Shown here one piece after another: positions 9,980 to 13,784 of a stretch of 64,000 bases of DNA. The notes beneath the pieces are model-generated. The model was not told where the DNA came from, searched no databases, and saw only the letters and a program-made list of their open reading frames with translations. Within the stretch, counting starts at the first letter, position 1, and each line of letters opens with the position of its first letter. Both the position numbers and the translations under genes were made by a program. The stretch covers positions 1-64,000 of the forward strand of contig NZ_BJVA01000009.1 of the NCBI RefSeq assembly GCF_007988905.1, in the 5' to 3' direction. This DNA is from Gluconobacter kanchanaburiensis NBRC 103587 (GTDB lineage Bacteria > Pseudomonadota > Alphaproteobacteria > Acetobacterales > Acetobacteraceae).

Positions 9980-10057
9980 CGTCCCGAAAGGGGCGCGTAT
10001 CCGCCGACGCTTTCCCTCTTTTCCTGACGCGTGCCCGGCTCCACAGTAGAGGGCACT

Positions 10058-11089
10058 ATGACATTTTTTCACAAACCTCCCCGTATTGCTCCTCCGCCAG
10101 AAGGGCGGACCGGTATCCTCCTCGTCAATCTCGGAACGCCTGATGATACAGGCTATTTTTCCGTGAGGCGGTATCTGAGCGAATTTCTCTCTGACCGGCG
10201 CGTCATCGAGAGTCCCCCACTGATCTGGCAGCCAATCCTTCAGGGTATCATTCTGACAAAACGTCCTTTTGCGAGCGGCGCCAATTACGCGCGGATCTGG
10301 CACAAGGAAGAGAACGCTTCGCCGTTGCGGGTTTATACTCGCAGGCAGGCTGAAGGGCTTGCGGAACGGCTCAAGGCCGAAGGTATCCCGGTGGAATGGG
10401 GTATGCGTTATGGTCGCCCGTCTGTCGCAAAAGCCCTTGAAAGCTTGATGGATCAGGGCTGTGACCGGATTATCAGTATTCCGCTTTATCCACAGTATTC
10501 CGCAACAACGACCGCAACGGCGAACGATCAGCTCTTCCGCGCTCTCATGCGCCTGCGCCGTCAGCCCGCGGTCCTGACTGTTCCCTCATTTCCGGATCAC
10601 CCCGCGTTCATACGGGCTCTGGAGACGTCTGTCAGAGAGACCCTTGCCGGGTTAAATTTCACCCCCCAGCAGGTAGTGGCTTCTTTCCACGGACTCCCCA
10701 AGGTCTGTATCGACAAAGGCGACACCTATCGGGATGAATGCGAGCGAACGATCGCGGCTCTGCGCAGTGCTCTGGGTTTTGACGCAGAGCGAATGCCTCT
10801 GACGTTCCAGTCACGTTTCGGTCCGCTTGAGTGGGTCCAGCCTTATACGGCCCCTTATGTTACGGCCCTTCCGAAGCAGGGCGTCACGAAAATTGCGGTT
10901 ATCATGCCCGGTTTTATGGTGGACTGCCTCGAGACCCTGGACGAGATCGGAAATGAACTGCGCGAAGAGTTTATGGAAGCGGGCGGCGAAGACTTTGCCC
11001 TCGTACCCTGTCTCAACGACTCGAAGGGAGCGATTGATTTGCTGGAGCAGCTTTCTCGATCTGCGATGGCCGGGTTTCAGCGTTCCTGA
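10058..11089 (+). CDS. hemH: Ferrochelatase
   Basis: HemH inserts Fe(II) into protoporphyrin IX in the last step of heme synthesis. The 343-residue protein has the opening TGILLVNLGTPD, the conserved MRYGRPSV, IPLYPQYSATTTAT, the active-site histidine segment VVASFHGLPKVCIDKGDTY, and a C-terminal LETLDEIGNELRE with the conserved Glu pair. I chose the ATG at 10058, which has GAGGG just upstream, over an in-frame start nine codons earlier. A strong terminator follows. Heme is needed for the respiratory cytochromes and for flavohemoglobin. Confidence 0.96.
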   Translation: MTFFHKPPRIAPPPEGRTGILLVNLGTPDDTGYFSVRRYLSEFLSDRRVIESPPLIWQPILQGIILTKRPFASGANYARIWHKEENASPLRVYTRRQAEGLAERLKAEGIPVEWGMRYGRPSVAKALESLMDQGCDRIISIPLYPQYSATTTATANDQLFRALMRLRRQPAVLTVPSFPDHPAFIRALETSVRETLAGLNFTPQQVVASFHGLPKVCIDKGDTYRDECERTIAALRSALGFDAERMPLTFQSRFGPLEWVQPYTAPYVTALPKQGVTKIAVIMPGFMVDCLETLDEIGNELREEFMEAGGEDFALVPCLNDSKGAIDLLEQLSRSAMAGFQRS

Positions 11090-11112
11090 AACCGTCTGCT
11101 GATTGTTTCAGA

Positions 11113-11141
11113 CCCCACCCGGTATAGGGTGGGTTTTTTTT
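11113..11141 (+). terminator. Intrinsic terminator after hemH
   Basis: CCCACCC (11114-11120) and GGGTGGG (11127-11133) form a stem with a six-base loop, followed by eight T residues. It lies 24 bases after the hemH stop and separates hemH from the levansucrase leader. Confidence 0.9.
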
Positions 11142-11204
11142 ATGTAGCCCTGTCTTGTTGCCTTAGGGGAATGTCTCTGGGAAATGGGAGGTGCATTTTC
11201 CGGG

Positions 11205-11233
11205 TTGCATTGCGTGCGGTTCATGTCTATAAC
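11205..11233 (+). promoter_or_regulatory. Housekeeping-type promoter of the levansucrase leader
   Basis: TTGCAT (11205-11210) and TATAAC (11228-11233) are separated by exactly 17 bases, a good sigma-70 pattern. Transcription would start near 11240, about 200 bases before the levansucrase start, so the mRNA has a long leader. Pattern-based call. Confidence 0.6.
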
Positions 11234-11239
11234 TGTGGC

Positions 11240-11440
11240 ATTGAGCCATAAACGGTATTGAAAAAACCGCTTCATAAGTCATTTCAGGCAAAGCTCATGT
11301 CAAAAGGTCTGTCCGCAGGGGCAGGCCTTTTTTGTTTTCTGTTTCTGAAGAAACGCACGCAGTTCTCTGGAGAAATTACGGCTCCAGACGAGGTTTGTTG
11401 TGTGCTCTTCCATAAGTCTTTCAGGGTGAGATCGCTGTGA
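11240..11440 (+). promoter_or_regulatory. Levansucrase leader: candidate attenuator with a 47-codon upstream ORF
   Basis: Three hairpins follow the promoter: TGGC/GCCA (11236-11248, at the expected 5' end), CGGT/ACCG (11253-11269), and a 13-bp stem with a T tract at 11302-11338, which is an intrinsic terminator. An ORF of 47 codons starts with ATG at 11298, four bases before that terminator stem, runs straight through it, and ends with TGA at 11438-11440. Its stop overlaps the GTG (11437-11439) that can start levansucrase. The sequence near the ORF start is repeated near the GTG: TTCATAAGTCATTTCAGG (11271-11288) against TTCCATAAGTCTTTCAGG (11408-11425). A ribosome on the upstream ORF would cover the terminator, so translation could control read-through. 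Alternatively 11240-11338 is an independent small RNA. Confidence 0.45.
11302..11338 (+). terminator. Intrinsic terminator within the levansucrase leader
   Basis: The arm at 11302-11314 pairs with 11319-11331 (13 bp including two G-U pairs, four-base loop), followed by TT and, after one G, four more T. It is located upstream of, not after, a gene, which suggests attenuation or the 3' end of a short RNA. Confidence 0.7.
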
Positions 11441-12801
11441 GCGATCCAGACTTTGAAAAAATCTTCAAATCTTTATTCACGGGAAAAATCATGAACGCTG
11501 TTTCCAGCACGCAGAGCGCAGTCCAGTCAGGTTCGCGCTGGACGATCGCTGACGCGATGAAGATCCGTACCGATGATCCGACGACGACCATGCCGGTCAT
11601 CGATTATGCGTTTCCCGTCATCGATTCCGATGTCTGGCAGTGGGACACCTGGCTGCTGCGCGACATTCATGGCAAGACCGTCACCTTCAAGGGCTGGTAT
11701 GTGATGTTTGCCCTCGTTGCCGATCGTGCCGCCACGGGCGATACGACAGAGGGCTGGCACAGCCGCAACAACTATTCCTATATCGGCTACTACTACAGCC
11801 GCACCGGTAATGGCGCGGACTGGAAGTTCGGTGGCCGTGTCATCAAGGAAGGCGCCAACTCCCGCAGCTGGGAATGGTCCGGTTGCGCAGTCATGCGCGA
11901 GAACAGCGCCAATACGGTCGATCTGTTCTATACCTCCGTCAACGATACGCCGTCCGAGTCTGTTCCGTCCTACACGACGGGCCGCATTCTGGCAGATGCC
12001 ACCGGCGTCTGGTTCGAGGGCTTCGATGTCTGCACGGACATGTTCCAGGCGGACGGCGTGAACTACGCCAACATCGTCGAGGACGAGTACTGGGACTTCC
12101 GCGATCCGCATATCTTCCGCAATCCGGACGATAATCAGATCTACGCCCTATTCGAAGGCAATGTTCCGGGCATGCGTGGTGACTTCACCATCGGTTCTGA
12201 CGAGATGGGCCTTGTGCCGCCAGCTACAACTGTTCCTGCTGGTGCGCAGTATGGCGCTGCGGCCATCGGCATTGCCCGCCTGACGTCCGACGCCACAAAG
12301 GGTGATTTCTCGGAGTGGGAAATGCTGCCGGCTCTCGTGACTGCGCTGGGTGTCAATGATCAGACGGAACGTCCCCATGTCGTGTTCCAGGACGGCCTGA
12401 CCTATCTGTTCACGATCTCACATCATTCCACTTTCACCGGCAACAGCACGGGGCCGGATGGAGTGTATGGTTTCGTGTCCCGGAACGGTATTTTCGGTCC
12501 GTATGCACCGCTGAACGGTTCGGGCCTCGTGCTCGGCAATCCATCCTCGGCGCCGTACGAGACCTACTCGCACTTCGTCGATCCTGCCGGTTATGTGCAG
12601 TCCTTCATTGATACCTTGCCGCAGCCCGGTTCGGCTGACCCGCAGGACCCGACGACCTATCGCATCGGTGGCACGCTGGCCCCGACCGTGAAGATCGTCC
12701 TCGAAGGTGAGCGGACCTATCTGACGGAAGTTCACGCTTACGGGCAGGTTTATGCCCAGGGCGTCTGGCCGACTTCTTCGGCCTTTGACAAGCGCTCCTG
12801 A
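11437..12801 (+). CDS. Levansucrase (GH68)
   Basis: GH68 enzyme that transfers fructosyl units from sucrose to make levan. Numbering from the GTG at 11437, the nucleophile is Asp70 in WQWDTW, the transition-state Asp is Asp223 in WDFRDPHIF, and the acid/base is Glu311 in DQTERPHVV; WSGCAV and SFID also match. The body closely resembles the Zymomonas mobilis extracellular levansucrase. There is no signal peptide, as in Zymomonas, so export must be unconventional if it is secreted. The GTG has AGGGTGAG upstream; the ATG at 11491 (MNAVSST) matches the start of relatives better and is a real alternative. An inulosucrase activity is less likely. Preceded by an unusual leader and followed by a terminator. 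Confidence 0.92.
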   Translation: MSDPDFEKIFKSLFTGKIMNAVSSTQSAVQSGSRWTIADAMKIRTDDPTTTMPVIDYAFPVIDSDVWQWDTWLLRDIHGKTVTFKGWYVMFALVADRAATGDTTEGWHSRNNYSYIGYYYSRTGNGADWKFGGRVIKEGANSRSWEWSGCAVMRENSANTVDLFYTSVNDTPSESVPSYTTGRILADATGVWFEGFDVCTDMFQADGVNYANIVEDEYWDFRDPHIFRNPDDNQIYALFEGNVPGMRGDFTIGSDEMGLVPPATTVPAGAQYGAAAIGIARLTSDATKGDFSEWEMLPALVTALGVNDQTERPHVVFQDGLTYLFTISHHSTFTGNSTGPDGVYGFVSRNGIFGPYAPLNGSGLVLGNPSSAPYETYSHFVDPAGYVQSFIDTLPQPGSADPQDPTTYRIGGTLAPTVKIVLEGERTYLTEVHAYGQVYAQGVWPTSSAFDKRS

Positions 12802-12810
12802 AGTCGTTTT

Positions 12811-12841
12811 GCCCTCTCCCGAAAGGGGGAGGGCATTTTTT
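12811..12841 (+). terminator. Intrinsic terminator after levansucrase
   Basis: GCCCTCTCCC (12811-12820) pairs with the GGGGGAGGGC arm around a GAAA loop and is followed by ATTTTTT. It starts ten bases after the stop codon. Confidence 0.92.
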
Positions 12842-12927
12842 GCGTTTCAGATTCTGCGCATCAGGCGAAGAGATGCGCTGGACTGTGGGCCTGAAACTGT
12901 TTTGACGATTTCTGGAAAATTATCGGC

Positions 12928-13004
12928 TGGTCGGAGTGAGAGGATTCGAACCTCCGGCCCCTGCGTCCCGAACACAGTGCTCTACCAGGCTGAGCTACAC
13001 TCCG
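12928..13004 (-). tRNA. tRNA-Pro (anticodon CGG)
   Basis: The minus strand folds as a 77-nt cloverleaf: acceptor CGGAGTG/CACTCCG, D arm with GCTCAGCCTGGTAGAGC, anticodon stem CTGTG/CGCAG around loop TTCGGGA (anticodon CGG, reading CCG), T arm with GGTTCGAATCC, and an encoded CCA end. It lies downstream of lepB on the same strand. Confidence 0.97.
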
Positions 13005-13064
13005 GCCGACGGCGCTTCTCCTACAGGGGTTAATGCTTTCCTGCAAGAGGGCTGGCGCTAAAAA

Positions 13065-13784
13065 TCAGAGAACCAGCGCTGTTCTGCCAATATCCCGCCA
13101 TGACCACAGAACGGCGCGGGCCTGTCCCTGGAGGTTCCAGACAGGAAGAAGTCCGACGCCTCCCTCCGCTACGCTAACGCGAGAGTCGGCGGAGTTGTCT
13201 CGGTTGTCGCCCATGACAAATAGATGATCCGCCGGGACTGTGAAGGGCGCGACGTTATCCAGTTCTCCGTCCTGCGATATTTTGAGAATGTCATGATGGA
13301 TATTCCCAGGCAGGATTTCTTCATAGCGCTCAGCTGGCACCCAGACGCCTTTGTGGCTTTCTTCATGTGCGGTGCCCAGATCTTTCCAGGGCAATTCGGT
13401 TCCGTTCAGAAAGACATGCCCGTGGACGAGCGCGATCCGGTCTCCGGGTAGGCCGATGACACGCTTGACCCATGTCTGATTCAAATTGGCGGGTGCCCGG
13501 AAGACGACGACGTCCCCTCGACGGGGAAGATGCCCGAAAAGACGTCCGTTCGTGCCGGAGGTGGGCTTCAGAAGATTGCCGAAGGGAAGATTGGCGGTGC
13601 TCAGACCGTAGGAAGGTACGATAACGCCAATCTGGTCCCCGATCAGCAGGGTCGGCTCCATAGAGGCCGAGGGGACGGTATAGCTGGCCGCGAGGGCGCT
13701 ATGGATTGTCATGAAGCCTAGAAAGACGGGCAGGCAGGACAGGATGTCACGTGCAAGAGAACGCAGAGTTGGGATGCGGGGCAT
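13065..13784 (-). CDS. lepB: Signal peptidase I
   Basis: LepB cleaves Sec and Tat signal peptides at the outer face of the inner membrane. The 239-residue S26 protease has one N-terminal membrane segment (about residues 14-33), the catalytic Ser41 in VPSASMEPTLLIGD, the catalytic Lys near 106 in TWVKRVIGLPGDRI, and the box GDNRDNSADSR. This is a complete short form. It is followed by tRNA-Pro on the same strand and separated from the upstream etf genes by a terminator. Confidence 0.95.
   Translation of the reverse strand: MPRIPTLRSLARDILSCLPVFLGFMTIHSALAASYTVPSASMEPTLLIGDQIGVIVPSYGLSTANLPFGNLLKPTSGTNGRLFGHLPRRGDVVVFRAPANLNQTWVKRVIGLPGDRIALVHGHVFLNGTELPWKDLGTAHEESHKGVWVPAERYEEILPGNIHHDILKISQDGELDNVAPFTVPADHLFVMGDNRDNSADSRVSVAEGGVGLLPVWNLQGQARAVLWSWRDIGRTALVL

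Follow-up and report, generated by a model that had tools for sequence, protein, structure and literature searches.

How is a levansucrase gene expressed when an intrinsic terminator stands between it and its promoter? The question is raised by levS of Gluconobacter kanchanaburiensis NBRC 103587, which lies in the stretch of DNA analysed here (the window: 64,000 nt, positions 1–64,000 of the forward strand of contig NZ_BJVA01000009.1). Levansucrase converts sucrose to the polymer levan; Jakob et al. 2019 reportedly distinguish two levansucrase types. A first-pass annotation of the window had read the region ahead of levS as a translation-dependent attenuator, in which translation of a 47-codon open reading frame (ORF) would prevent the terminator hairpin from forming and, through overlap with the levS start, couple to levS. 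A small RNA (sRNA) was offered as the alternative. The features discussed below are collected in Table 1.

Table 1. Features of the levS region and the candidate repressor gene (window coordinates unless another contig is named)
Feature	Position	Strand	Remarks
hemH	10031–11089		in the window, ahead of the levS leader
Terminator after hemH	11114–11133
Promoter of the levS leader	11205–11233	+	TTGCAT 11205–11210, 17-nt spacer, TATAAC 11228–11233
Operator-like palindrome	11236–11248	strand-neutral	TGGC-ATTGA-GCCA; overlaps the predicted transcript start
Predicted short leader RNA	11242–11340	+	~95 nt; 5' end folds with a GGYTCA-type arm in most relatives tested, weakly in the window genome
Near-repeat	11270–11288 and 11407–11425	+	CTTCATAAGTCATTTCAGG and CTTCCATAAGTCTTTCAGG; matched by 3/1000 mononucleotide shuffles
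47-codon ORF	11297–11440	+	ATG 11297–11299 to TGA 11438–11440; open through the terminator; no Pfam match
Intrinsic terminator	11302–11340	+	13-bp stem 11302–11331, then T-rich tail TTGTTTTCT
Small hairpin	11430–11446	+	GATCGC-TGTGA-GCGATC; ~50 nt before the levS ATG; larger covarying stem there in 13 relatives
levS (GH68 levansucrase)	11491–12801	+	start ATG 11491; Shine-Dalgarno-like GGGAAA 11481–11486
tRNA gene after levS			tRNA-Pro by ARAGORN
XRE gene, own genome	G000 C7:38853–39242		130 aa; HTH_3 domain

The levS start and the short reading frame

The 47-codon ORF exists as described: it is open through the terminator, and its TGA overlaps the GTG at 11437 that had been taken for the levS start (an ORF finder gives a longer version, from TTG 11258). 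That start does not hold. GTG 11437 is not conserved and sits inside the small hairpin at 11430–11446; by comparison with relatives, levS begins at ATG 11491, 54 nt further downstream. CGGGAAAAATC stands directly ahead of this ATG, GGGAAA or AGGAAA precedes the levS ATG in 14/14 window-clade genomes (window included), and 10 of the 21 genus leaders offer no earlier start codon in frame with the matching ATG. The TGA of the short ORF is 50 nt upstream of ATG 11491, a spacing at odds with translational coupling. The levS product (scanned from GTG 11437) matches PF02435 with an E-value of 1.7e-140; no N-terminal hydrophobic signal is visible in it by eye.

Nor is the ORF shared among relatives. 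In four of the 21 leaders (G013, G018, G010, G015), no terminator-crossing ORF begins 45 nt or less from the terminator. The terminator-crossing ORFs of the other 17 differ in start codon, frame and length (16–131 codons), so that the common start, frame or length of a translational attenuator is not found across the set; leaders as alike as those of G012, G011 and G001 contain ORFs of 88, 88 and 27 codons, respectively. At one locus outside the genus (L039), predicted RNA start and terminator are 36 nt apart, leaving minimal room for an ORF. In G017 and G024, other ORFs do run through the terminator and stop at the levS ATGA. As levS begins ATGA, however, any ORF that runs into it in that frame is bound to end with this overlap.

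The near-repeat reported at the starts of the short ORF and levS is real in the window sequence; it scores lower in each of 20 relatives, and is confined to the window genome. We conclude that both the ORF and the near-repeat are lineage-specific and a translational mechanism is unsupported, and we judge the 47-codon ORF to be a chance open frame. The leader comparison proposed as a check in the first-pass annotation gives a divided outcome: promoter and terminator are kept in relatives, while the ORF and the GTG overlap are not.

Promoter, terminator and leader RNA

The leader was found by DNA search in 20/26 genus genomes and, in G025, was reached via the levS locus; an RNA model of 21 leaders added G003, G019, G021 and G023, whose loci were also read. 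Promoter and palindrome are present in 25 of the 26 genomes (G014 gave no leader match by DNA search or RNA model). Because no terminator is recognisable by eye in G023, which has promoter and operator, the full set including the terminator stands at 24/26. Downstream of hemH, levS follows the leader in 21/25 genomes; the other four have a lysis-like gene cassette and no levS. In 7/21, terminator and levS are separated by a gene for a small hydrophobic protein. Some genomes also carry a divergent, small, secreted-looking gene between hemH and the leader (L046–L048, L071–L073 and L075; not in the window); this gene, without a Pfam match, is carried by the genus deep group and by the genomes that lack levS here.

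RNA-model matches outside the genus, at 11 places (27–34 bits), were not accepted: the three that were read (L074, L076, L077) resemble generic terminators. Two weak matches within the genus (L085, L086) look like generic terminators too. Upstream of levS in Zymomonas, Komagataeibacter and Acetobacter, neither operator nor terminator is clear. In Ameyamaea (L120), and ahead of the second G. cadivus levS (L125), the terminator is kept and the operator is absent; the two elements are therefore separable. The second G. cadivus levansucrase is 58% identical, with the terminator directly before its start and no operator.

The promoter proposed in the first-pass annotation is in the sequence and conserved in relatives. 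A consensus promoter scan of 10500–13500 found none (1.1 expected) and so lends no support; the call is made because the arrangement is conserved, with identically spaced hexamers in those genus leaders that were read and a similar layout, by eye, ahead of levS at L038 and L039. A sigma-70-type promoter is predicted to start RNA at about 11240–11242. The palindrome begins 3 nt past the −10 hexamer, and its left half is therefore probably untranscribed, even though a survey in G. oxydans accepted distances of 3–11 nt from the −10 hexamer to the transcript start (PMC5756330); in the leaders compared, the left half lies 3 to 6 nt past the hexamer, ahead of the usual start. The palindrome had been annotated as the first of two small RNA hairpins, a reading we set aside, because transcription probably begins past its left half and the palindrome also turns up at unrelated promoters. 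It is present and most likely a DNA operator (see below). The second hairpin (11253–11269) is confined to the window row of the leader alignment, none being visible by eye in the other 20 rows.

The 13-bp intrinsic terminator between promoter and levS, also described earlier, is present and kept. Eight terminator-like sites occur in the 3 kb from 10500 to 13500, the levS terminator among them, against an expectation of 3.6 ± 1.9. A purpose-made hairpin finder, run without a shuffle control, placed a terminator-like hairpin of 10–16 pairs downstream of the promoter in 21/21 same-genus levS leaders. The terminator sequence varies from leader to leader, yet its pairing is preserved. At five further loci (L038, L039, L118 and L120, from four other genera, and L125), the terminator ends 15–22 nt before the predicted levS start. 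A gap of this size fits no promoter, and hence levS RNA must come from upstream and cross the terminator. The upstream gene is divergent at L038 and in the genus deep group, so the terminator is not that gene's. A conserved intrinsic terminator between promoter and gene, as in a leader attenuator, is thus found in 21/21 genus leaders plus the five further ones. The comparison points to a real leader terminator that may attenuate levS, and disfavours a stand-alone sRNA gene.

Folding of the predicted leader RNA was examined in several ways. A helix between its first 12 nt and the leader interior reaches p < 0.05 in 12/18 leaders (p = 0.27 in the window). The 5' arm of this helix is part of the palindrome; we claim no proof of the 5' stem as a conserved fold, and the DNA half-site could account for part of it. 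Searches of Rfam at gathering and permissive thresholds assigned the leader to no family, with weak chance matches, the tRNA being the sole match in the window. RNAalifold, applied to the 21-leader alignment, found the palindrome alone and no covariation. A hand-made two-helix structure on the same alignment has 7 pairs changed on both sides, versus 4.1 ± 1.1 in shuffled alignments; this is weak support, with a slightly higher covariation score (0.201 versus 0.185) when the structure is slid by −1, and is weak partly because the terminator arms are misaligned in the alignment. Outside the palindrome, the leader RNA is moderately conserved (mean column identity 69%).

Ahead of levS itself, a stem of 16 pairs shows covariation among 14 clade sequences (31 cells changed on both sides, versus 13.3 ± 2.7 shuffled; 0/500). 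In the window genome this large stem is lost; its place is taken by the 6-bp hairpin together with a second copy of a segment from the leader. A AAATTACGGCTC-like block after the terminator (window 11370–11384) recurs in most of the clade; its GGCTC could pair with the GAGCC of the palindrome, or could be a degenerate half-site.

The palindrome and a candidate repressor

Within the palindrome, TGGCA and GAGCCA are invariant in 21/21 rows of the leader alignment, and the levS-less genomes (G003, G019, G021, G023) carry the form TGGCATTAAGCCA. The operator is kept in 21/21 genus levS leaders and in three further genera. In the family sample, the operator 13-mer lies upstream of levS in 12 of the best 21 levS loci and is missing from nine. 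In a set of 34 levS loci (31 drawn from a set of 80) that overlaps these 21, the count is 24/34; the ten without it are five from Komagataeibacter, two from Zymomonas, and one each from Ameyamaea and Acetobacter oeni; the tenth is the second levS of G. cadivus, whose genus does carry the candidate repressor.

In the window genome, with up to 3 mismatches, TATAANNNTGGCANTGAGCCA occurs at 5 places, versus 0 for the reversed control; two of these adjoin a gene for a 130-aa XRE protein, and one belongs to a three-site array. The form ATGGC-N5-GCCAT occurs at nine sites (one in the reversed control), to which the levS site, beginning GTGGC, does not belong. Six of the nine are single sites, at least some of them apparently coding. 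The remaining three, 26 bp apart, form an array (G000 C5:71734–71800; L177) in the gap that separates the gene for a POT-family transporter (PF00854, E = 4.4e-16) from a divergent ORF resembling a secreted protein. The stricter ATGGCWTWAWGCCAT is found in 4/26 genus genomes (control 0), in the transporter region of G000, G020 and G025 and in the xre/dnaB region of G012 and G020. The divergent region beside the transporter also has sites in G020 and G025.

The XRE protein occurs in 30/397 family genomes, from 9/102 genera (E below 1e-12). At these 30 loci, TGGC-N5-GCCA is found 111 times in the 14.7 kb beside xre and four times in the other 86.8 kb; the count is not a clean test, because the genomes are related and the region called near xre was fixed after the first loci had been seen. 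Sites lie at −22 to −24 in 30/30 loci and near −70 in 27/30; in 26/30 there are also two sites downstream, spaced 32 bp from each other. These loci are not independent trials: they come from related genomes, and the locus was picked for the window-genome sites there. The palindrome is thus common to levS and xre, and lies, as expected of an autoregulating repressor, upstream of xre itself. In 6/6 loci read, one member of the downstream pair lies between a TTGACN and a TTAATN hexamer; no conserved ORF follows this promoter-like stretch with an operator in its spacer (six loci). At both places the palindrome overlaps a predicted promoter or transcript start: it begins 3 nt past the −10 hexamer at levS, and between −35-like and −10-like hexamers downstream of xre (starts predicted). 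The xre gene is highly conserved at these loci (L195–L224), with operator sites on both sides. In several of the six loci, GTTC-N7-GTTC repeats, a LexA-like motif, lie near xre.

Occurrence by genus agrees with a link between palindrome and protein. Among genera of the family sample with LevU-type levS, operator and XRE are both present in 4/4 (g1, g23, g26, g49) and both absent in 3/3 (g10, g31, g60; one-sided Fisher 0.029). The 12 operator-bearing loci come from the former four genera, and the nine without come from the latter three, which have no XRE match; the 24 operator-bearing loci of the larger set likewise belong to genera with the xre gene.

Against NCBIfam models, the XRE protein scores 34.5 of the 80 bits required for RstR and 23.9 of 101 for DicA, both below cut-off; among PDB entries it matches an ICEBs1 regulator (E = 1.4e-4) and P22 C2 (E = 2.6e-4). 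Like P22 C2, DicA and RstR, it is a short XRE protein with an HTH_3 domain, and has palindromic sites both ahead of the gene encoding it and at further promoters. It differs in its operator (TGGC-N5-GCCA), in scoring under the family cut-offs, in the DnaB-like gene nearby, and in having sites also at levS and the POT-family transporter gene. We suggest that the protein may work like an RstR/DicA-type repressor, and do not file it as a member. The palindrome is most likely the DNA operator of this XRE (P22 C2/DicA-like) repressor.

Lysis-like genes and the control of levS

In four genomes (G021, G023, G003 and G019; L088–L091, respectively), the place of levS is taken by four short genes, the last three overlapping, in the order holin-like, unidentified second, Rz-like, Rz1-like lipoprotein. 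The cassette lies behind the same promoter and operator in all four genomes, and behind the leader terminator in G003, G019 and G021. The Acetobacter phage phiAX1 (LC644973.1) encodes homologues of genes 1, 3 and 4 in the same order (profile E-values 2.6e-12, 1e-6 and 2.9e-4 among 991 ORFs). In a phage collection, a prophage-type relative of the holin-like protein matches phiAX1 at 2e-10. For gene 2, no phiAX1 homologue is convincing (among eight proteins, E = 0.054). In the phage these genes are listed as hypothetical, and levansucrase was found neither in the phage records nor among the viral contigs searched. The holin-like protein has no Pfam or PHROGs family (best 0.073), and is read as a holin because of where it lies, its size, its hydrophobic stretches and its homologues in phage; gene 3 has weak Rz-like matches (E = 0.013–0.08). 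By position, phage homology and weak profiles, then, the cassette genes are lysis-like.

Related genes occur in other contexts. A second site in G025 (L229:2702–3779) has homologues of all four (E = 9e-36, 1.6e-30, 1.6e-21 and 6.7e-23), and related small proteins lie in phage-like regions (L225–L227), in one case immediately behind a gene that resembles an endolysin (phrog_938, E = 2.7e-15). The operator is absent from the prophage-type regions L225–L230, and no holin-like relative was found in the window genome. Genes downstream of levS match phrog_19005 at L111 and in Komagataeibacter (L115; E = 2e-22 and 2.4e-119, respectively), and L111 also matches phrog_28078 (E = 6e-51); the levS neighbourhood in those genomes is therefore phage-derived. 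The stretches concerned are L111:5040–6400 and L115:4809–6717; in Komagataeibacter a holin-like gene also follows levS. A 'porin-like' ORF has no Pfam match.

The lambda late region has the order pR'–6S RNA–tR'–lysis genes. By arrangement, the likeness lies in the short leader and terminator directly before holin/Rz/Rz1-like genes in G003, G019 and G021 (in G023 without the terminator). The differences are (i) the absence of a match to the lambda-type Q family from the own genome (PF06530, the one family tested), (ii) the single operon, (iii) the presence of levS as cargo in most genus members, and (iv) the operator at the start site. As a Q-type gene was not found, we do not file the leader as a lambda-type late attenuator; by analogy, it may work like a phage late leader (lambda pR'–tR') combined with a P22-type operator, without being a member of that class.

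We consider it probable that a captured phage-style control region, with repressor and leader terminator, governs this signal-peptide-less levansucrase. Positions 11205–11490 would be the control region of a phage-derived operon now carrying levS. An autoregulated XRE repressor, encoded elsewhere in the genome, would sit on 11236–11248 and block initiation; with the operator free, RNA would start at about 11240–11242. Some 60 nt into the transcript, the terminator would end most RNAs, at 11335–11340, as a ~95-nt leader, and read-through alone would yield levS mRNA. In relatives, the promoter–operator leader stands ahead of the holin/Rz/Rz1-like cassette, or a holin-like gene plus levS. We infer repressor binding, a terminator that is partly efficient or relieved by some factor, and any role in LevS release. 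A further-reaching version is possible, if doubtful: the levansucrase type of acetic acid bacteria that lacks a signal peptide may be the cargo of a domesticated phage lysis module, kept near-silent by repressor, operator and a tR'-like terminator, and may leave by holin/spanin-type action or through lysis of a few cells.

Other explanations of the leader have to be weighed against this one. Attenuators of the trp/pheA type are translational, of the amino-acid kind, and what the window genome has in common with them is an ORF that spans the leader terminator. The ORF here differs in not being conserved. That its translation blocks the hairpin and couples to levS is very improbable: the ORF exists, is open through the stem, and has terminator-crossing counterparts ending at the levS ATGA in G017 and G024, but start, frame and length vary, four leaders have none, levS starts elsewhere, the ATGA overlap is automatic, and L039, L118 and L120 are nearly without room for an ORF. 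Translation-dependent attenuation thus falls. The first-pass annotation also knew of no comparable description for GH68 genes, thereby overlooking the classical sacB leader of Bacillus subtilis, in which a GH68 levansucrase gene lies behind a promoter and leader terminator under SacY/BglG antitermination. Gene family, promoter and leader terminator are common to both. In contrast to sacB, the genome here has no BglG/SacY RNA-binding domain (CAT_RBD, PF03123, 0 matches; 4/14 control genomes positive, including E. coli and B. subtilis), in the folds we saw no helix that overlaps the stem as an antiterminator would, and a DNA palindrome lies at the start site instead. Sucrose-responsive antitermination by a SacY-type protein has very little to commend it, the more so as the G. 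albidus levansucrase is, in passages of one report, not sucrose-induced (PMC7272483).

That report describes the levansucrase of Gluconobacter albidus TMW 2.1191 as constitutive, without sucrose, in the passages covered (PMC7272483), which makes it a poor fit to a tightly closed switch. It would suit unregulated damping, in which prophage leftovers allow constant partial read-through and low constitutive levS expression, as would the lack of a Q-type (PF06530) or BglG-type (PF03123) factor in the genome and the coming apart of operator and terminator at some loci. We nevertheless think damping unlikely, given an operator kept in every genus levS leader and in three further genera, and a terminator whose pairing is kept though its sequence changes. 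It is likewise improbable that the unit is a stand-alone sRNA gene, its terminated ~95-nt RNA acting elsewhere and levS having a promoter within 11340–11490. The compact promoter–RNA–terminator unit does occur in G003, G019 and G021, without levS at the locus; the 5' stem and terminator are sRNA-like; and the window clade has ~150 nt between terminator and levS, with the AAATTACGGCTC-like block. Set against these are the five leaders, four belonging to other genera, in which the terminator abuts levS, the small hydrophobic protein gene that comes next in part of the genus, and the moderate conservation of the RNA once the palindrome is put aside. What survives of the sRNA alternative is a short terminated RNA, still expected as a by-product.

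With regard to the favoured reading, a phage-style control region, what is unexpected is the shared operator, the likely repressor and the lysis-gene context; promoter and terminator are ordinary parts. No terminator or repressor in a levansucrase leader of acetic acid bacteria is described in the open-access titles, abstract openings and passages covered (PMC5756330, PMC8102297, PMC8566455, PMC7272483, PMC10097950). The idea of a peptide attenuator gives way to a testable switch consisting of one 13-bp operator, one repressor gene and one terminator. Operator and repressor would be handles with which to raise or gate levan yield in food strains. The link to phage-type lysis genes suggests how an enzyme that lacks a signal peptide comes under control and, perhaps, leaves the cell; if true, levan would be a shared good released by a captured phage programme.
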